From Coriobacteriia bacterium (GTDB taxonomy: Bacteria > Actinomycetota > Coriobacteriia > Anaerosomatales > Kmv31): a DNA stretch of 44,593 nucleotides. Location: NCBI GenBank assembly GCA_014859305.1, contig JACUUM010000013.1:1-44593 (forward strand), in the 5' to 3' direction. A model generated the notes under the pieces. The model was not told where the DNA came from and ran no database searches. It worked only from the letters and a program-made list of their open reading frames with translations. Below, in pieces: positions 8,070 to 16,938 of this stretch (its first letter is position 1; each line of letters opens with the position of its first letter). The position numbers and the translations under genes are program-made.

Positions 8070-8842
8070 CGCGCGGCCGCGGCCGCGCCCCTCCTGCCCA
8101 TGAGCTCTCGCACGGCGGCCAGCGCCACCCCGAGCATGACGCCGAGGAAGCCCGCCCCCGCCAGCGCGTCGCGCAGTGTCTTCGAGGCGGGGCGGGAAGT
8201 GACCGACACGTCGCCGTCCCAGGAGTAGGCGTCCAGCACCGACTGGTACGCCGAGGTGTAGTTGAGGAGGGAGAGCCTCAGCGAGTACAGCGCCTGGGAC
8301 TTGGCGAGATCCGCCTCGGACTGCGTCCGCATCTGGTTCGCCAGGAACTCTGTGCGCTCCACCTCCTCGACCATCCGCTGGGTGAGCTCCATGAGTGCGC
8401 GGGCCTTGTCGATCTCGCCCGTGGACAGCTCCCGGCCGCGGGTCACCACGCCCCGCGCCATCGCCGCCGCCCCGCGCTCTGCCTCGGCCTCGTCGTCGGC
8501 GCGGTACGTCACGAACAGCCACGCCTGCGGGTCGCCGGTGGTGTAGGCGTTCATGTCCGAGGAGAGGTCCTCGGCCGGTATGCCCGTCTCACTCGCGACG
8601 ATGCTGCGGTACTCCTCGCCGTCGCCGGTGATCTCGGAGACGAGGTCGTCCGGCTTCACCACGCCCGGGCGCGCCGTGATCGCCGCCGCGATGGCGACCT
8701 GCGCAGTGCCGGTGTGGGTCGTTCTGGCGTCACGGGTCGCGAGGTAGGCCGCAGCGAGCGCGGCGACCGTCACCACCGCCACGAGCCACCACTGACGCCT
8801 CACCGCATCGGTCAGGACGGCGACGGGATGGCCTTCAGGCAT
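8066..8842 (-). CDS. Wzz-like polysaccharide chain-length determinant
   Basis: A 258-residue inner-membrane protein with the Wzz layout: a short cytoplasmic start, one membrane helix at about residues 18-36, a long extracytoplasmic segment with helical, charged stretches (about 120-190), and a second membrane helix near 226-247 followed by a short basic tail. Such proteins set polymer length together with Wzy and Wzx. No attached or neighbouring BY-kinase is visible, unlike many capsule systems of Gram-positive bacteria. The ATG at 8842 follows GAGGAGG and lies inside the end of the upstream Wzy-like gene. Sequence is divergent, so the call rests on topology and on its place between the polymerase and a glycosyltransferase. 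Confidence 0.7.
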   Translation of the reverse strand: MPEGHPVAVLTDAVRRQWWLVAVVTVAALAAAYLATRDARTTHTGTAQVAIAAAITARPGVVKPDDLVSEITGDGEEYRSIVASETGIPAEDLSSDMNAYTTGDPQAWLFVTYRADDEAEAERGAAAMARGVVTRGRELSTGEIDKARALMELTQRMVEEVERTEFLANQMRTQSEADLAKSQALYSLRLSLLNYTSAYQSVLDAYSWDGDVSVTSRPASKTLRDALAGAGFLGVMLGVALAAVRELMGRRGAAAAAR

Positions 8843-10220
8843 ATGAAGCCTCCTCGTTCTCTGCGAGGCGCCGCGCGATCACGCACAGCGCCAGGAACAG
8901 CCACAGGTACTCGAAGTACAGATAGTACTGGAACAGCGTCTGGACGAGCAGGGTGAGCACGCCGGCCAGCGCGAGGGTCTCCGGCATCGTCCACCCGCGC
9001 GTCCTTCGCCTCACGAACTGCCGCAGCGCCGCCCCTATGAGCAGGACCTCCGCGAACAGGCCCGCAAGACCCATCTCGGCCCACATCGCCAGGGGCAGCT
9101 GGTGGGGCCGCAGGACGCTGGCGTGCGAGCCGGGACGGCGGTACTGCACGTAGGCTCGCTCGTAGGCGTTGAGGCCTGTCCCCCACACCCAGTGTCGCTC
9201 GATGATGTCGACGGTGGACTCGAGCATGAGCGCCCGGGTCGCCACGGACCGGTCCGTCCCCACGTCCGTGATCGAGGCGAACCGCGCGACGATCGTCTCC
9301 GACGCGGAGGTGACCAGCAGCGCGCCGACGAGCGCCGTCACCACCGCAAGCGGGACGCGTCGCCGTCTCGGCGCGGTCAGGACGACCACGGCGATGCCCA
9401 CCAGCACGGCGACCCAGCCGGTGCGCGAGAGCGTGACCACGAGCGCCGCCGAGGAGAGCGCGAAGACGCCGAGCCACACGGAAGCGCGCCGCCCGCCCCG
9501 GGCGTGAACGGCCTCGGCGAGAGAGGCCACGATCACCACCGTCAGGAAGCCCGCGAGGTAGTTCGGGTCTTCGAAGAACCCGCTCACGCGGGTGACCTTG
9601 GTGCCGCCGACCTTGGCGACCACGCTCATGTTGCCTGGCGCGATCTCGGGGAAGCGGTACTGGAAGAGCACGAGCGCCGAGGTCGCCACCCCCGTGACTC
9701 CCACGGCGGCGAGCAGGCGCCTCACACCCGCGGAGTCCCGGACGACGTTGGCGTAGAGCAGCGTGAACAGCGCCAGGAAGACGAGCCGCACGAGCGACAC
9801 GGCGGTCCCGCCGGGGTTCAGCGAGTGGGGCAGCGACCACACGACCGCGGCCAGCAGCGCGAACACGCCGGCGTCCAGCGCGGAGAAGCGCAACCAGCGG
9901 CGCGGCTCGTGCCACACGCGGACCCCCCACGACACCAGCGAGAGCAGCAGCGCCAGGTGGAAGAGCGTGATCGTCACGGAGCCCTGGTAGACGCGCCCGG
10001 CGGCGTCGAGCGGGAGCGTGAGGGCGATCAGCGCCGGAGCGTACTCGACGCGCCAGACGACCACCCCGGCGATCGCCGCGGCGGCCAGCGCGACCGCGGC
10101 CGCCGCCGGAGAGAGCGCCCCGTTGGTGACGGCCACACCCCCCGCCGAGCCGAGCAGCAGCCCCGCGGCCGCCCAGGGGGCGATTCTCGGGGTCCGCACG
10201 CTCGATGCGGCCTCAGCCAC
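8835..10220 (-). CDS. O-antigen ligase/Wzy polymerase-like membrane protein
   Basis: A 461-residue protein with about ten to twelve hydrophobic helices. The large extracytoplasmic loop around residues 300-360 carries STRALMLESTVDII-like and HWVWGTGLNAYERAYVQY blocks and a following HASVLRPHQLPLAMWAEMG stretch, the Wzy_C/WaaL pattern (H-N-x-x-L-x-x-W-x-E-x-G type). Proteins of this family join lipid-linked repeat units or transfer polymer. With Wzx and Wzz in the same locus, polymerisation is the likelier job. The GTG at 10220 has GGAGGTG upstream and overlaps the stop of the preceding glycosyltransferase by 8 bases. Confidence 0.82.
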   Translation of the reverse strand: MAEAASSVRTPRIAPWAAAGLLLGSAGGVAVTNGALSPAAAAVALAAAAIAGVVVWRVEYAPALIALTLPLDAAGRVYQGSVTITLFHLALLLSLVSWGVRVWHEPRRWLRFSALDAGVFALLAAVVWSLPHSLNPGGTAVSLVRLVFLALFTLLYANVVRDSAGVRRLLAAVGVTGVATSALVLFQYRFPEIAPGNMSVVAKVGGTKVTRVSGFFEDPNYLAGFLTVVIVASLAEAVHARGGRRASVWLGVFALSSAALVVTLSRTGWVAVLVGIAVVVLTAPRRRRVPLAVVTALVGALLVTSASETIVARFASITDVGTDRSVATRALMLESTVDIIERHWVWGTGLNAYERAYVQYRRPGSHASVLRPHQLPLAMWAEMGLAGLFAEVLLIGAALRQFVRRRTRGWTMPETLALAGVLTLLVQTLFQYYLYFEYLWLFLALCVIARRLAENEEASYA

Positions 10221-11577
10221 CCGGTGACACCTCCGATCGTTCCTCCGCCGGACACCCGGCCAGCGAGTCGAGCACGGCGGCGACCTGCGCCGCCTGCCGT
10301 CCTCGCTCGAAGCGCGCGACCACCGCGAGGTCGGGCTCCGAGCGGATCCCGCCCGAGCGCTTCTCCTCGGCGAGCGACGCCACCGCCTCGGCGAGGGCCG
10401 GCGCGTCCCCCGGCCGGGTCACCCGGCCGGCTCCCGCCTCGTGCAGCAACCGGGCAGCCACGCCGTCGGCCGGCCCGACGAGCAGGACGGGCACTCCCAT
10501 CCCGACGTACTCGAAGAGCTTGCCTGTGTAGATGCCTTCCGCACCCGGACGTTGACCGACCGAGACCAGCGCGGCGTCGGCGGCGGCCACGACGCCGAGC
10601 GCCTCGGCGTGGGGCTTGAAGCCGTGGAAGCGCACGACCTCGCCGAGGCCGTGCCGCCGGACCAGCGCTTCGGCCTCCGCGGAGGGCGGGCCGACCACGT
10701 CGACCGCGAATCCCTCGCCGAGCCGGCCCCCCCGCAGGGCGAGCCCGAGTCCTTCGACGAGCGTCGCGGGATCCAGGGCGCGGTACAGGCGTCCCATGAA
10801 CGCGAGGCGCAGCGGCCCGGCACGGTCCGGGGCGCGCGGGGGGAGGTCCTCGGGGTCGAACCCGTTGGGCACCACGAGTACGCGCCGCGCGCCCAGCGAG
10901 CGGGCCTCCTCGGCGATCACCTCGGAGACGGCCGTGACGGCGTCGGCGGCCGCCAGTGTCGCGCGCTCCAGCGCCTGGGAGCGGTGCGCGTGCCACGCGG
11001 TGGGCCAGCGCACGCTGGGGTTGACGAGCCACGCGTCGCGCATGTCCGCCACGAAGGGCACGCTCAGGGCGCGTCCGGCGGAAGCGGCGGCGGCCACGCC
11101 CGAGTACGGCGGGCCGGAGGCCAGCACCGCGTCGAAGGGCTCCTCGGCGTGCAGGCGGCGCGCGGCCGCCTCGACGCCGGCCGCCCAGCGCACCGCCGTG
11201 TCCGGCACGGCGACCCACCGCGCCAGCCGCGTGCTCAGCGGCACGCCACTCGCCGAGGACGCGGAGCCGGAGGTGCGCCGCCCCTGCTCCGACGCGCCGC
11301 GCCTGCGCACCAGCCGCTTGACCGGCGAGATGGCTCGCGCGACGCCCGCTCCCACGTCCCGGGCCGGCAGCCGGACCACCCGGGCCTCACTCACGTCGGC
11401 CAGCAGCGTCTCGTCGCGGGGCCGCCCCTCGATGGGCTCGGCGGCGACCACGGTGACGCGCCACCCGTGCCGGGGCAGGTGCTTGGCGAGTTTCGCGAGG
11501 CGCTGGACGCCCCCTCCGGCGGACGGAGGGAACTCGTAGGTGACGAGGAGGAGTCTCCTCGGCGTGGAGGGGCTCAT
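10213..11577 (-). CDS. Glycosyltransferase family 4 protein
   Basis: A GT4 enzyme of 454 residues. It opens LLLVTYEFPPSAGGGVQRLAK, a common GT4 start, has DAVLASGPPYS, FVADMRDAW and VVPNGFDPEDL in the acceptor half, and LRLAFMGRLY, VRFHGFKPHAEAL and GIYTGKLFEYVGMGVPVLLV in the donor half. Two ATGs compete: 11586 and 11577. Neither has a Shine-Dalgarno. A TTGTAC-N16-TATAGT promoter ends one base before 11586, which would put the transcript start near 11580, so the ATG at 11577 with an almost absent leader is preferred. It heads the five-gene minus-strand run down to 5650. Confidence 0.85.
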   Translation of the reverse strand: MSPSTPRRLLLVTYEFPPSAGGGVQRLAKLAKHLPRHGWRVTVVAAEPIEGRPRDETLLADVSEARVVRLPARDVGAGVARAISPVKRLVRRRGASEQGRRTSGSASSASGVPLSTRLARWVAVPDTAVRWAAGVEAAARRLHAEEPFDAVLASGPPYSGVAAAASAGRALSVPFVADMRDAWLVNPSVRWPTAWHAHRSQALERATLAAADAVTAVSEVIAEEARSLGARRVLVVPNGFDPEDLPPRAPDRAGPLRLAFMGRLYRALDPATLVEGLGLALRGGRLGEGFAVDVVGPPSAEAEALVRRHGLGEVVRFHGFKPHAEALGVVAAADAALVSVGQRPGAEGIYTGKLFEYVGMGVPVLLVGPADGVAARLLHEAGAGRVTRPGDAPALAEAVASLAEEKRSGGIRSEPDLAVVARFERGRQAAQVAAVLDSLAGCPAEERSEVSPGG

Positions 11578-11586
11578 GCTGGCCAT

Positions 11587-11614
11587 ACTATAATCGCTTG
11601 TCGCGCCGGTACAA
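11587..11614 (-). promoter_or_regulatory. Promoter of the minus-strand glycosyltransferase/Wzy/Wzz run
   Basis: On the minus strand TTGTAC (11614-11609), a 16-base spacer and TATAGT (11592-11587) form a sigma70-type promoter. The predicted start, about 7 bases further, is only 3 bases before the ATG at 11577, giving a nearly leaderless mRNA. Its -10 overlaps the plus-strand TATAAT of the divergent gene. Confidence 0.5.
11589..11594 (+). promoter_or_regulatory. -10 box of the divergent plus-strand glycosyltransferase
   Basis: A perfect TATAAT lies 51 bases upstream of the GTG at 11645. No good -35 is seen. It shares four bases with the opposite-strand -10, so polymerase binding for the two directions should exclude each other. 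Confidence 0.45.
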
Positions 11615-11644
11615 GGCGCACCCGCTCCCCGACGAGAGGCCAGC

Positions 11645-12799
11645 GTGGACCAGCAGCCCCGATCGACCGCGGCACTCGCCGCCTCGGAGCCCGTGCGCCG
11701 CACCGGAGTCTGCGTCCGCGTGAACAACGCCTACACGCACGACCTGCGGGTGCGCCGCGAGGCCGAGACGCTCGCCGCGGGCGGCTACGACGTCGTGGTG
11801 GTAGCCGACGCCGGGGCCGGCCTGCCCTCCGAGGAGACCGCGGGCGGCGTGCGCGTGCGGCGCGTCGGCAGGACGAGCCGCATCCCGTTCGCGAGCCTGG
11901 TGCGCCCGCTGGCCGAGGAGGGTGCGGACGTCTACCACGCCCACGACGTCGACTCGCTGCTGCCCTGCTTCCTCGCCGCGCGCCGCGCAGGCGCCAAGCT
12001 CGTCTACGACTCGCACGAGCTGTGGAGCGGGCACGCCCGCGACAAGGTGCACGCCAAGCGCCGCGCGCTGGTCGCGCTCGAGGGTCCGCTGTTGCGCCGT
12101 GCGGACGCGCTGCTGACCGCATCGCCCGCCTACACGGAGGAGATCGTGCGGCGCTACGGCTACGAAGGGCCGGCCGAGACGCTGCTCAACGCGCCGCGCC
12201 ACTTCCCCGACGAGGAGCTTGCGGCCGCCTGGGCCGAGCGCGACGCGTCCGAGGAGGTACGCATCCGCTACGTGGGCGTCTTCCAGCACGGGCGCGGGGC
12301 GGTGCCGCTCATCGCCTCGCTCGCGCACCTGCCCGTCGACCACGTCGTCGAGCTCATAGGCCCCATCCCGCAGCCCGACTACGAGACGGCGATACGCGAG
12401 GCGGCGGCGCCCTTCGGCGATCGCGTGCGGTTCCTCGGCGTGATCCCTCCCGAGGAGATCGTGCCGGCGCTGGCCGCGGCGCACGTCTCGGCGGTGACGA
12501 TCGAGCCCCACTCGCTGTCCTACCGCCTGACGGCGCCCAACAAGCTCTTCGACTCGTTCATGGCCGGCACGCCGGTGGTCGCCTCGGAGATGCCGACGAT
12601 CTCGCGCTTCGTGCGTGAGACGGGCGCCGGAGTGCTGGCCGACGTGACCGACCCCGCGGACATCGCGCGCGCCGTGCTCGCCGTGCTTGCTCGCGCCGCA
12701 GGGTACGCCCGCGCGGCCCGCGCGGCGGCCCTGCGCTACAACTGGGAGACCGAGCGGGAGAAGCTCCTCGGCTTGTACGAGCGGCTCACGGGAGCCTAG
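11645..12799 (+). CDS. Glycosyltransferase, GT4-like
   Basis: A 384-residue GT-B glycosyltransferase, the only gene of the first plus-strand island. Blocks include VYHAHDVDSLLPCF, LVYDSHELWSGH, LLTASPAYTEEIVRRYG, VRIRYVGVFQHGRG, VRFLGVIPPEEIVPAL and LTAPNKLFDSFMAGTPVVAS, the last being the donor-binding region. It is related in style to the glycosyltransferase at 5650-6834 (HDLD/HDVD and MHELY/SHELW blocks). The GTG at 11645 follows GACGAGAGG. It is transcribed divergently from the Wzy/Wzz run and converges with the BNR_4-CWB2 gene, only 4 bases separating the two stops. Confidence 0.85.
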   Translation: MDQQPRSTAALAASEPVRRTGVCVRVNNAYTHDLRVRREAETLAAGGYDVVVVADAGAGLPSEETAGGVRVRRVGRTSRIPFASLVRPLAEEGADVYHAHDVDSLLPCFLAARRAGAKLVYDSHELWSGHARDKVHAKRRALVALEGPLLRRADALLTASPAYTEEIVRRYGYEGPAETLLNAPRHFPDEELAAAWAERDASEEVRIRYVGVFQHGRGAVPLIASLAHLPVDHVVELIGPIPQPDYETAIREAAAPFGDRVRFLGVIPPEEIVPALAAAHVSAVTIEPHSLSYRLTAPNKLFDSFMAGTPVVASEMPTISRFVRETGAGVLADVTDPADIARAVLAVLARAAGYARAARAAALRYNWETEREKLLGLYERLTGA

Positions 12800-12803
12800 G
12801 GGC

Positions 12804-15242
12804 CTACTGCGGCGCCGGCGGCGCCGGCAGCAGGCTCATGAGGCGGTTCATCACCTGCGCGGAGACCGCCGGCTCGCCGCCGAGGACGAAGACGTCCAGC
12901 ACCTCGTGCGCGTTGTCCGCGACCCACCGCTCGGTCGAGGCCGGCAGCGTGCCGAACCGCGGGTTGAGGTCGCGCGAGGTGATGAGCATCGTGGCGCGGA
13001 AGCGGGCCGCCATCACGCCTCCGGCCAGCCCGTCCGGGAAGTCCTCGCCCGAGGCCAGAACGAAGCGCTCGGACTCCAGCACCCTCTCCGACTGGGCGTA
13101 CCGGGCGATCTCCAGGGCCGTGTCGTAGCGGGTCGGACCGCCCTTGCGCAGCGGGGCCGAGCCGGTCAGGTTCGCCACCTGGCCCGCGACGGCCGACGAG
13201 ACGGCCGCCTCGCTGCCCACTACCAGCGACCCGGCTGGCTTCAGCGCCGCGATCGCGTCACGGGAGGCCGAGGGCAGGGAGTCCTGCCTCGTGAGCAGGA
13301 TCGGCCAGGCCTTTCGCGCCGCGAGCGGAGAGACGACGAGCGCGTCGGGGAAGGTCACGCCCGAGGCGATCACGACCCGCGTCGGCCGCTCGCCGCCGCG
13401 GCGCGCCTTCAGCTTCGAGGCGATGCTCCTGGACGTGGCGTACCTGTCGGGGCCGGCGATCCTCTCGACGCTCACCTTGCTCTTGGCACGCAGTGCGTCC
13501 TCCACCTTCCTGGACACGGCGGCCTCTCCGCCGAGGATGAACACCTTCCTCGCGATGCTCTGAGTGGCCTCGGGACTCCCCGCCCGGGAGAAGAGTCGGT
13601 CGATCTCCGCCGAGACCGAGGCGTCCAGGCGATCCTTGCTCACCAGGAGCAGGGGCGCCTGGTACGCGTGGGCGAGCGGCCCACCGCACAGCACGTCGGG
13701 GAAGTCCGACTTGGACGCCACGAACACGGCCGACGTGCGCTTGCCCGCCTCGTAGGTCTGGCTCCCGTTGGGGAAGGCCCGCCTGGAGACCGCGACGGCG
13801 GTCTCGACCCTGTTCGGGCCGGCGAGCCGCCACGCGTCGGGCGTGAACTCCCTTCCGAGGAAGCCGCTCTCCCCCCACAGGAAGACCTTGTGGATGAAGT
13901 TGGCGCCGTCGTTGTTCCACTCGGCGAACATCAGGCGCGCATCGGGGTGGGGAGGTCCGCCGCCTGCCGTTCGCACGATCTGGGGATCGTTGTACCGCGA
14001 CGAGGCGTCCGGCGATCGCTTCACGGGCCCCTTCAGAGACCACTCACCGCCGGCCCCGAGTTCCCACTCCTCGATGTCCCCTCCGCGCGCGGCGTTCGTC
14101 GCCCCGGGCAGCGCCTGCGGGTCCGGCACGCCTCCGGTCGTGAGGTAGGCGACGGTCCTGCCGCCCGAGACGTCCAGGTCCCCCGCATCGAAGAAATCGT
14201 CGGTCCCGGTGATGCGCTCGGGCTCCGCGGGGAACGTCGTCTCGACCGAACTCGTCCCTTCGATCGTGCGCCCCTCGATGTAGCGCCAGTCGTACCTGTC
14301 GCCGCCGGGGAGCGGACGCTCGGCGAGGAACAGGATGTGCGGCGCGCCCTCGTCGTCGGCGCGCACGACCATCTGGTTCACGCCCGCGCCCTGCGAGTCC
14401 CACACCTTGCAGCGCTCGTCCAGGCCCGGCGTGCCGTCCGGATACGTCTTCTTGAGCCCCTCGCGGGGCAGCTCCTGCCCTTCGAGGTCGACCCACCGCC
14501 CGTCCGGGTCCCGCCGCATGTAGTAGAGGTCGTACCGGGTGGACATGTCGGGGCTGCCGATGTCGCGCCAGTGGAACGCGCAGTGGACGGTACGGCCGTC
14601 GGGGCCGAGGCTGAAGTTCGCGTACCAGGCGTCCATGCCCGGGCGCACCTCGATCACGTACCTGGGACCCGTCCAGCCGCCGTCCCCCGCCCGCTCGAGA
14701 ACCGCCCACGCGCCGTCGTACGCCTTGTTGCTGGTGCGCACCCGGTAGAACAGCATCAGCTTGTCGCCGACGAGCAGCGGCTGCGGGTAGGTCCCTTGAC
14801 GCTTGGTCGTCCCGGTGGCGACGTCGACCGCCGCTGTCCAGCCCTGCGACACGGTGTTGGGCTCGAGGGACCTCACGTGCTTGATGTTGGAGTTGTGGGC
14901 GCCGTAGAAGACGTGCACGTAGCCCTCGGCGTCGAGCGCGATCGAGGGCCCGCCGTGGAAGTCCTGGATGAGCGGGTTGTCGCCCACGCGGAACGGGCCC
15001 TCCCACGCCTGGTCCTCGTGGTCGTAGGCGGCGACGTAGGGGTCCAGGCCGAAGCCCTGGTAGGCCACGTAGGTCTTCTCGGCCGCAGCGTCGTAGACCG
15101 CTTCGGGGTGGATGACCATGGCCTCGTAGGCCGCGTTGCCGGACGCCTCCCGCTCGAAGTAGGGAGCGGTCAGGGAGAAGGCGGCGGGCAGGGGGGTGGA
15201 CAGCGTCGCGAGCGCGACGGCGAACGCCAGGACTCTCCTCAT
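12804..15242 (-). CDS. Secreted BNR_4-type sugar-binding/hydrolase protein with three CWB2 repeats
   Basis: An 812-residue exported protein. Residues 1-23 are a signal peptide. Residues about 35-450 look like a BNR_4 propeller: HPEAVYDAAAEKTYVAYQGF, DFHGGPSIALDAEGYVHVFY with the following GAHNS, then a calcium- or sugar-site-like NFSLGPDGRTVHCAFHWRD, and RYNDPQIV. BNR_4 proteins include putative sialidases and relatives of polysaccharide lyases. About residues 470-812 are three CWB2 repeats (AGPNRVETA, AGPDRYATS and GGPTRYDTA, with SDFPDVL, VTFPDAL and EDFPDGL), ending in a Pro-rich tail. The ATG at 15242 follows AAGGGTG. Likely a wall-attached protein that binds or cleaves the local polysaccharide; the substrate is unknown. 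Confidence 0.82.
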   Translation of the reverse strand: MRRVLAFAVALATLSTPLPAAFSLTAPYFEREASGNAAYEAMVIHPEAVYDAAAEKTYVAYQGFGLDPYVAAYDHEDQAWEGPFRVGDNPLIQDFHGGPSIALDAEGYVHVFYGAHNSNIKHVRSLEPNTVSQGWTAAVDVATGTTKRQGTYPQPLLVGDKLMLFYRVRTSNKAYDGAWAVLERAGDGGWTGPRYVIEVRPGMDAWYANFSLGPDGRTVHCAFHWRDIGSPDMSTRYDLYYMRRDPDGRWVDLEGQELPREGLKKTYPDGTPGLDERCKVWDSQGAGVNQMVVRADDEGAPHILFLAERPLPGGDRYDWRYIEGRTIEGTSSVETTFPAEPERITGTDDFFDAGDLDVSGGRTVAYLTTGGVPDPQALPGATNAARGGDIEEWELGAGGEWSLKGPVKRSPDASSRYNDPQIVRTAGGGPPHPDARLMFAEWNNDGANFIHKVFLWGESGFLGREFTPDAWRLAGPNRVETAVAVSRRAFPNGSQTYEAGKRTSAVFVASKSDFPDVLCGGPLAHAYQAPLLLVSKDRLDASVSAEIDRLFSRAGSPEATQSIARKVFILGGEAAVSRKVEDALRAKSKVSVERIAGPDRYATSRSIASKLKARRGGERPTRVVIASGVTFPDALVVSPLAARKAWPILLTRQDSLPSASRDAIAALKPAGSLVVGSEAAVSSAVAGQVANLTGSAPLRKGGPTRYDTALEIARYAQSERVLESERFVLASGEDFPDGLAGGVMAARFRATMLITSRDLNPRFGTLPASTERWVADNAHEVLDVFVLGGEPAVSAQVMNRLMSLLPAPPAPQ

Positions 15243-15276
15243 GGGCACCCTTGCGGTCGGGGGCGGGCCGCGAGCC

Positions 15277-15282
15277 ATTGTA
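15277..15282 (-). promoter_or_regulatory. Candidate -10 box for the BNR_4-CWB2 gene
   Basis: The minus strand reads TACAAT, 35 bases before the ATG at 15242. The -35 at the right distance (TAGGGA) is poor, so confidence is limited. Confidence 0.35.
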
Positions 15283-15309
15283 ACATCGCTCCAGGCGCTC
15301 CCTAGCAGG

Positions 15310-15338
15310 TTCGCTGCCACTGCGGCATCGTATAGACT
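15310..15338 (+). promoter_or_regulatory. Candidate promoter of the flippase gene
   Basis: TTCGCT (15310-15315), 17 bases and TAGACT (15333-15338) lie in the 160-base divergent gap. Both boxes are imperfect. The expected start is near 15345, about 75 bases before the preferred GTG. Confidence 0.3.
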
Positions 15339-15420
15339 GCCGGGGGCGGCAGGCCCGGAAGCGTAACGGTTCGCCGTCGGGGGAGCGTGCGATCCTCCCC
15401 CCGTGTCAGGATCGGGACCC

Positions 15421-16938
15421 GTGCTGAAAGACATCCTCAAAGGCGCCGGGACGGACGCCGCCAAGTACTTCCCCGTCAGGCTCGTGCCGGCGCTGACGTC
15501 GCTGGTCACGGTGCCCGTCTTCACGCGTCTGATCGGCCGCGCGGACTACGGCGACTTCTACCTCGTCTCCTCGGCCACGACCTTCGCGGCGACCTTCGCG
15601 ACGGCGTGGATCACCGGCTCGGCGGTGCGCTTCTACTGGCCCTACGAGAAGCAGGGCCGCGAGGACGACTACGTGGCGACGACCCTGTGGTCCTCCATCG
15701 CCTCGCTCGCGGTCGTGTCGGCCCTGCTGGGCGCCGGCGCGCTGGTGTTCGCCGGCGACATCCCCCCAAGCGTCGCCCGCCTCATCCCGGTAGGCATCGC
15801 CGGGCTCGCCTTCAACTACCTGTTCAACGTGCTCCTGCAGGTCCTGCGCGCATCGAACCGCTCGACGGCGTTCGCGACGCTCTCCGTGGCCGGCACCGTC
15901 GTCGCGACCGCGTTCTCGGTGTCCTTCGTCGCGGGGCCGAGGTGGGGCTCGTACGGCATCCTGCTGGGCGTGCTGCTCGGACACGCCGTGCTCATCCCGT
16001 TCTGCCTCCGGGAGGTCCGCAAGGAGGGGAAGCTCTCGCCGAGACACGTGCGCCGCGACGTGTTCGACGAGTTCCTGCGCTACGGCATCCCGATGGTGCC
16101 GGCCGCCGTCTCCGCCTGGATGCTGGTGATGTCCGACCGCTACGTCATCGGGTTCCTTCGCGGCACGGCCGAGGTGGGCATGTACTCGGTCGCCTACGGC
16201 CTCGGCGAGAAGGTCATGCAGCTCGTCATGATGCCCGCGGTCATCACGATGGCCCCGGTCATGGTGCAGACCTTCGAGAAGCGGGGGCAGCACGTCGCGC
16301 AGCGCGTGCAGACCCAGTTCACCCGCTACTTCTCGATGGCGACGTTCCCCCTCCTGTTCGGGCTGGCGGGCGCGGCCCGCGACTTCATGGGGATCTTCAC
16401 CGGCGAGGCGTACCGGGCGGCCTACCCCATCCTCCCGATCGTGGCCGCCGGGGTGATGTGCTACGGGCTCGTGCAGATAGCGGGGAACGGCATCGCGCTG
16501 CACAAGCGCTCGACGATCATCATGTCCAACACGCTGGCGGCGGCCGCGTTCAACCTCGGAGCGAACCTGGTCCTCGTGCCGGTCTTCGGCTACATGGCGG
16601 CGGCCTACACGACACTCGCCTCCTACGTCGCCCTGCTCGCCCTGACCTGGGTGCGCAGCAGGCCCTACATGTCGTGGGACATCCCCTGGCTCGACCTCGG
16701 CCGCATCACGGCCGCCGGGCTCGCGATGTGGGGCGCGATCGCGGTGACCGCGGCGCTGCTGCCCGCCAACATCGCGGTCCTCGCACTCGAAGCGGTGGTG
16801 GGCATCGCCGCCTACGTCGCCGCGCTGCTGGGCCTGCGCGCGCTGCGCGACGACGAGCGCGAGTTCGTCGCGGAGCTCGCGGGGAAGGCCGCGAGCCGCC
16901 TGGGGTTCCGCCGGGCGACCGAGGGTGCGGGGCCGTGA
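15421..16938 (+). CDS. Wzx-type polysaccharide flippase
   Basis: A membrane protein of about 505 residues with some twelve to fourteen hydrophobic helices and the oligosaccharide-flippase opening (KDILKGAGTDAAKYFPVRLV, then VTVPVFTRLIGRADYGDFYL). Charged residues inside helices and the central SDRYVIGFLRGTAEVGMYSV block are typical of the MATE-like Wzx/RfbX family that moves undecaprenyl-linked repeat units across the membrane. The start is uncertain: GTG at 15421 has AGGA about ten bases before it; GTG at 15403 is in frame but its GGGGAG is too far away. It opens the second plus-strand island and is followed by ugd and a glycosyltransferase. Confidence 0.87.
   Translation: MLKDILKGAGTDAAKYFPVRLVPALTSLVTVPVFTRLIGRADYGDFYLVSSATTFAATFATAWITGSAVRFYWPYEKQGREDDYVATTLWSSIASLAVVSALLGAGALVFAGDIPPSVARLIPVGIAGLAFNYLFNVLLQVLRASNRSTAFATLSVAGTVVATAFSVSFVAGPRWGSYGILLGVLLGHAVLIPFCLREVRKEGKLSPRHVRRDVFDEFLRYGIPMVPAAVSAWMLVMSDRYVIGFLRGTAEVGMYSVAYGLGEKVMQLVMMPAVITMAPVMVQTFEKRGQHVAQRVQTQFTRYFSMATFPLLFGLAGAARDFMGIFTGEAYRAAYPILPIVAAGVMCYGLVQIAGNGIALHKRSTIIMSNTLAAAAFNLGANLVLVPVFGYMAAAYTTLASYVALLALTWVRSRPYMSWDIPWLDLGRITAAGLAMWGAIAVTAALLPANIAVLALEAVVGIAAYVAALLGLRALRDDEREFVAELAGKAASRLGFRRATEGAGP

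Follow-up and report, generated by a model that had tools for sequence, protein, structure and literature searches.

A putative bidirectional promoter with a shared -10 region between two divergent glycosyltransferase genes

How are two glycosyltransferase genes that point away from each other across a gap of only 67 bases transcribed, and could a single AT-rich site serve them both? The question is raised by a locus in the window, that is, contig C13 in its entirety (44,593 bases, 71% GC), which belongs to a genome of 2.13 Mb whose source organism is probably uncultured. Warman, Grainger and colleagues have reportedly described bidirectional promoters of bacteria in which a -10 element is shared (Nat Microbiol, 2021). 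A preliminary description of the window placed two face-to-face promoters in this gap, took them to drive two operons headed by divergent glycosyltransferases and saw in their overlap a choice built into one site. Both head-to-head genes do encode glycosyltransferases of the GT4 type (Pfam Glyco_transf_4 and Glyco_trans_1_4). The minus-strand gene, whose start we corrected to the ATG at 11577, is followed in the same operon by an O-antigen ligase/polymerase-like gene with which it overlaps by 8 bases, so the minus operon stood; the plus-strand gene looks monocistronic because the next gene (12804-15524) lies on the minus strand (Table 1). That tail-to-tail neighbor encodes a protein of 906 amino acids with three CWB2 cell-wall-binding stretches and a BNR-type domain. 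Other neighboring genes, encoding a flippase-like protein (Polysacc_synt), a UDP-sugar dehydrogenase, another glycosyltransferase and a LytR_cpsA_psr protein, mark the surroundings as a cell-surface polysaccharide cluster. Neither Rfam nor tRNA scans gave any match in the window.

Table 1. Features of the divergent glycosyltransferase locus, observed and predicted, in window coordinates
Feature	Position	Strand	Remarks
O-antigen ligase/polymerase-like gene (Wzy_C)	8835-10220	-	8-base overlap with the end of the minus glycosyltransferase gene; same operon
Minus GT4-type glycosyltransferase gene	10213-11577	-	ATG at 11577; orthologs begin at the same point
Predicted minus start, A11580 or A11577 (first base of the ATG)	11577-11580	-	From -10 spacing
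Plus -10 candidate TACTAT	11586-11591	+	18-bp register; T-7/A-11 reciprocally paired with the minus box
Minus -10 box TATAGT	11587-11592	-	Followed by AT, giving TATA(G/C)TAT; also kept before the start codon in orthologs
Plus -10 candidate TATAAT	11589-11594	+	Consensus; 21-bp register
Predicted plus start, G11600, alternatively G11603	11600-11603	+	From -10 spacing and purine preference; 5' leader of about 42-45 bases
Weak -35-like TTGTAC	11609-11614	-	16 bases upstream of the minus -10; 3/6 to consensus; position not conserved
Shine-Dalgarno-like GAGAGG	11634-11639	+	5 bases before the GTG at 11645
Plus GT4-type glycosyltransferase gene	11645-12799	+	GTG at 11645; apparently monocistronic

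Positions 11585-11595 of the plus strand read ATACTATAATC. Over 11500-11660 the two strands together hold only four TANNNT hexamers, all overlapping in one island at 11585-11594, namely, TACTAT (11586-11591) and TATAAT (11589-11594) on the plus strand and TAGTAT (11590-11585) and TATAGT (11592-11587) on the minus strand. If a TANNNT -10 is needed, there is thus one possible start place for both divergent genes. The overlapping hexamers TATAAT and TATAGT, which have the TATA at 11589-11592 in common, are present exactly as the preliminary description had them; the second plus-strand register (TACTAT) and the ATG lying 9 bases from the minus -10 were absent from it. With start points predicted 7 bases past the end of each -10, TATAGT and TACTAT give a start spacing of 18 bp, and TATAGT and TATAAT one of 21 bp. 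In the 18-bp pair the -11A and -7T of the two overlapping opposite-strand elements are reciprocally paired, TATAAT adds the 21-bp register, and the island lies between divergent genes, the location preferred by bidirectional promoters. The symmetry is partly free, since the TATA core of one -10 already supplies all but one of the matching bases for a TATA-N-T on the other strand. Neither a -35 nor an extended -10 was visible in the plus direction, and scanning 9000-14500 for consensus sigma-70-type promoters and terminators returned nothing.

The starts near 11580 and 11600 expected from the preliminary description agree with those predicted here from -10 spacing. In the 18-bp register the plus +1 falls on T11598, a poor start base, and the nearest purine downstream is G11600; taken against the purine +1/T -18 rule, a minus start at A11580 would make plus position -18 a T if plus transcription began at 11598. 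Overall, the predicted starts are 18 to 23 bp apart. On the minus strand, TATAGT begins 15 bases before the ATG at 11577, which corresponds to the TANNNT position of leaderless genes, slightly beyond the reported distance of about 10 to 12 bases, and the ATG is preceded by ATGGCCAGC, with no Shine-Dalgarno sequence. An in-frame ATG at 11586 touches the minus -10 and would lie upstream of any transcript from it. Since all 14 orthologs having the minus -10 (see below) place its end only 7 to 9 bases ahead of the start codon, the mRNA of the minus glycosyltransferase should be leaderless or nearly so. In many genomes of the order, one conserved gene appears to be preceded by a recurring leaderless-like site, TATACT(G/A)TCCACTCGTG.

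How unusual is such an island in GC-rich DNA? TATAAT on either strand appeared in 0.22% of 5,000 dinucleotide shuffles of 11501-11660, and an overlapping pair of opposite hexamers, each at 5/6 or better, in 0.64%; a TANNNTA somewhere in the 160-base shuffle was common (12.5%). A genome sample of 444,593 bases contains seven TATAAT (five on the plus and two on the minus strand) and four overlapping pairs of the same grade. Over the whole 2.13-Mb genome the ANTATANT overlap is found at 5 places and its letter-reversed control at 15. According to a crude gene finder and inspection by eye, four of the five ANTATANT sites lie between genes and two of the five between divergent genes, the window's own site being scored as intragenic there only because the finder takes the start at 11727. 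Symmetric TANNNTA was not clearly enriched in divergent gaps (5 per 10,219 bases, versus 14 per 35,198 bases in codirectional ones) in the sampled part of the genome, which comprised 35 divergent gaps as delimited by a crude gene finder taking the first start. In a second divergent gap of the same genome, between an ApbE-family gene and a DHODB Fe-S-binding-domain gene, we observed the perfect palindrome AGTATACT (L083:1501-1508; G000:C2:31715-31722), which reads TATACT on both strands in the 21-bp register.

We then asked what relatives retain of this arrangement. The comparison drew on 69 genomes of the order, none of them from another member of the window's family. P0002 had matches in 45, and 30 loci were taken (L032-L061, L032 being the window); leaving out L054 and L055, where the N terminus is missing, gave 28 orthologs or homologs of the minus glycosyltransferase, the window's included. 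By hand count, 14 of the 28 (L032-L036, L039, L041-L046, L048, and L049) have a -10 ending 7 to 9 bases ahead of the start codon; the other 14 have no -10 there, and most of them directly follow a codirectional gene. Ten of the 14 loci with a -10 have a divergent neighbor and four (L034, L035, L036, and L039) a codirectional one. The flanking DNA has diverged, but nine of the ten divergent loci retain TATA(G/C)TAT (seven loci) or TATTATA (two loci), with L045 having TACCATT instead; the four codirectional loci keep TATACT and lack the A that follows. A plus TANNNT overlapping the minus -10 in the exact 18-bp register is present in the same proportion of divergent orthologous gaps (9/10, the near-identical L044 and L046 both being counted). 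The 21-bp register occurs in only two of the ten, the window (TATAAT) and L049 (TATAGT), showing that the overlap singled out in the preliminary description is real but that the conserved register is that of the TATAGT/TACTAT type.

In six of the nine gaps (L032, L033, L041, L044, L046, and L049) there is no other plus TANNNT. Additional plus -10 candidates lie elsewhere in L042 and L043 (TACAGT; TATCAT and TAGCGT), both of them among the three divergent pairs that share the plus gene, and in L048 (TACTCT). The L045 gap, though divergent, contains no plus TANNNT at all, and a plus gene can therefore do without one. Reading from a few loci, we had taken the plus promoter to be always separate in relatives, a view dropped after the wider set gave 9/10 overlapping. 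The plus-strand ortholog also occurs in G039 (L005 reverse complement, 1432-1440), where its divergent neighbor is instead a putative PIG-L-like deacetylase gene; the gap there holds CTATCATAG, that is, TATCAT/TATGAT in the 18-bp register.

The A that follows the minus -10 distinguishes the two kinds of locus, being present in 9/10 divergent and 0/4 codirectional orthologs (Fisher P = 0.005). Counted by independent lineage on the gene tree, the same contrast is about 6/7 versus 0/2 (P = 0.083), figures that involve few lineages, crude gene calls and, in TANNNT, a weak definition of a -10. The clearest single comparison is that of the divergent L043 (TATACTAT) with its codirectional sister clade L034-L036 (TATACTCT or TATACTGT; support, 100/99). 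Among leaderless-like sites of the form TATA(G/C)T-N-T in the 69 genomes, an A comes next in 48 of 278, compared to seven of the seven divergent orthologs of that form. When leaderless-like TATA(G/C)TAT and TATA(G/C)T[CGT]T sites, 30 loci of each, were compared for divergent neighbors, many fell within genes or lacked a called gene. Since the plus side carries two different GT4-type partner genes among the lineages, the island belongs with the minus gene. In L033, L041, L042, L043, and L044, about 45 to 50 bases upstream of the minus -10, there is in addition a conserved block close to GGTGACGGCTG, starting at about 45 to 47 bases, with a best-seed score of 94 versus a mean of 87.4 (standard deviation, 1.5; maximum, 91) in 60 mononucleotide shuffles. 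This block could be an activator site in the relatives; nothing like it was found at the corresponding place in the window.

Taken together, we consider that the AT island at 11585-11594 is probably the shared -10 region of a bidirectional promoter of the housekeeping sigma factor. A promoter based on -10 symmetry, as had been proposed in the preliminary description, is supported by the overlapping boxes and by the conserved 18-bp geometry. The same bases could instead form a one-way leaderless promoter for the minus gene, the plus hexamers being by-products of TATA symmetry and the extra A/T after the -10 an aid to melting, while the plus gene would use a poor non-TANNNT promoter or one farther inside the minus coding region. 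In line with this, what is conserved in all 14 orthologs having the minus -10, whether the neighbor is divergent or not, is this box together with its spacing from the start codon, separate plus -10 candidates exist in L042, L043, and L048 and none in L045, the genome holds fewer copies of ANTATANT than of the reversed control, and the plus direction has no -35. However, codirectional orthologs lack the A after the -10, although melting should be just as important there, and the island holds every plus TANNNT of 11500-11660, so that we regard a one-way promoter as rather unlikely. Alternatively, the conserved ATA(G/C)TAT might be all or part of a palindromic binding site for a regulator, overlapping the minus -10, in which case a dimeric protein would account for the symmetry. 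ATA(G/C)TAT is indeed an odd palindrome of 7 bases in seven of the ten divergent loci, and the upstream block of the relatives, if an activator site, would point the same way. Yet 7 bases would make a short regulator site, TATTATA in L044 and L046 keeps the 18-bp -10 geometry and loses the palindrome, codirectional orthologs retain the -10 and not the palindrome, and the window is without the upstream block, which makes a regulator site very improbable.

Would a bidirectional promoter also act as a switch? Strong activation one way would then shut off the other glycosyltransferase and change the surface polysaccharide, which is a stronger form of the bidirectional reading and compatible with it. 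Steric exclusion follows if both orientations bind, and strong activation of one direction is reported to repress the other in Escherichia coli (PMC12825309). However, the same source describes basal firing in E. coli as too low for competition at 5/5 promoters, with interference only when one direction is strongly activated. Although binding is mutually exclusive, the choice seen in the preliminary description was thus an over-reading. Furthermore, the conserved upstream block of the relatives is missing from the window, no regulator was evident beside the glycosyltransferase pair among ten further open reading frames scanned in the window, and the partner genes differ between lineages. We therefore hold a switch to be improbable at this locus.

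From the sequence of the island, its rarity and its conservation, we infer the following course of transcription and its regulatory effect for the bidirectional promoter. RNA polymerase with the housekeeping sigma factor would bind the island facing either way, with room for one enzyme at a time. In the minus orientation, TATAGT would be used, giving a leaderless mRNA, or one with a 3-base leader, for the glycosyltransferase and the Wzy-like gene. In the plus orientation, TACTAT (18-bp register) and/or TATAAT (21-bp register) would yield the mRNA of the plus glycosyltransferase, its leader being about 45 bases long and carrying a Shine-Dalgarno sequence. At ordinary weak firing, the shared site would coexpress both glycosyltransferases more than switch between them; by analogy with the E. 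coli promoters, the island should mostly couple the two genes, and switching would require strong activation of one side.

The promoter of the glycosyltransferase pair is likely of a kind already known in bacteria and, as far as sequence comparison tells, unusually well conserved. It is possible, though we put this forward tentatively, that the bidirectional promoter has been held by selection over order-level time and that the coupling of the two directions was itself selected. According to this reading, the 18-bp geometry stays with one leaderless glycosyltransferase across about six gene-tree lineages, survives the exchange of the partner (two glycosyltransferase partners) and is absent when the neighbor is codirectional. 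Bidirectional promoters are known from start-site maps; if a shared -10 is kept across lineages and missing where the neighbor is codirectional, selection on bidirectionality becomes testable from sequence. Literature searches within papers accessible free of subscription gave no paper describing a promoter of this type that lies between glycosyltransferase genes or has one leaderless side.

Bidirectional promoters are defined in PMC10268837 as opposite-strand starts 7 to 25 bp apart, with the chromosomal ones concentrated between divergent genes, and are suggested there to be an early step in promoter evolution that is gradually removed or altered. At experimentally mapped bidirectional promoters, 18 bp, the known optimum in bacteria, is given as the commonest spacing (PMC12825309, PMC10268837), and for E. 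coli 10 and 23 bp are also described as common (PMC12825309). The island resembles these promoters in its overlapping opposite-strand -10 elements, the paired -11A/-7T, the spacing of 18 bp (and also 21 bp) and its position in a divergent gap (PMC10268837, PMC12825309). In contrast to them, it is deduced from sequence in a genome of 71% GC, one of its sides is predicted to be leaderless, and its geometry has been retained across an order despite a change of partner gene. Actinobacteria, among other groups, are reported (PMC3160421, PMC3898074) to have leaderless genes laid out in this way, with a -10 close to the start codon and no Shine-Dalgarno sequence. The minus side shares with the leaderless genes of Actinobacteria (PMC3160421), including those of the Mycobacterium tuberculosis start-site map (PMC3898074), a TANNNT just upstream of the start, the lack of a Shine-Dalgarno sequence and a weak or absent -35, but the first T of its -10 lies 13 to 15 bases upstream of the start codon, compared to about 12 as reported, and its -10 doubles as an opposite-strand -10. 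The closely juxtaposed divergent promoters of M. tuberculosis, for which the figure legend in PMC3898074 does not state an overlap of -10 elements, are similar to the present pair in having very close divergent starts in a high-GC genome.
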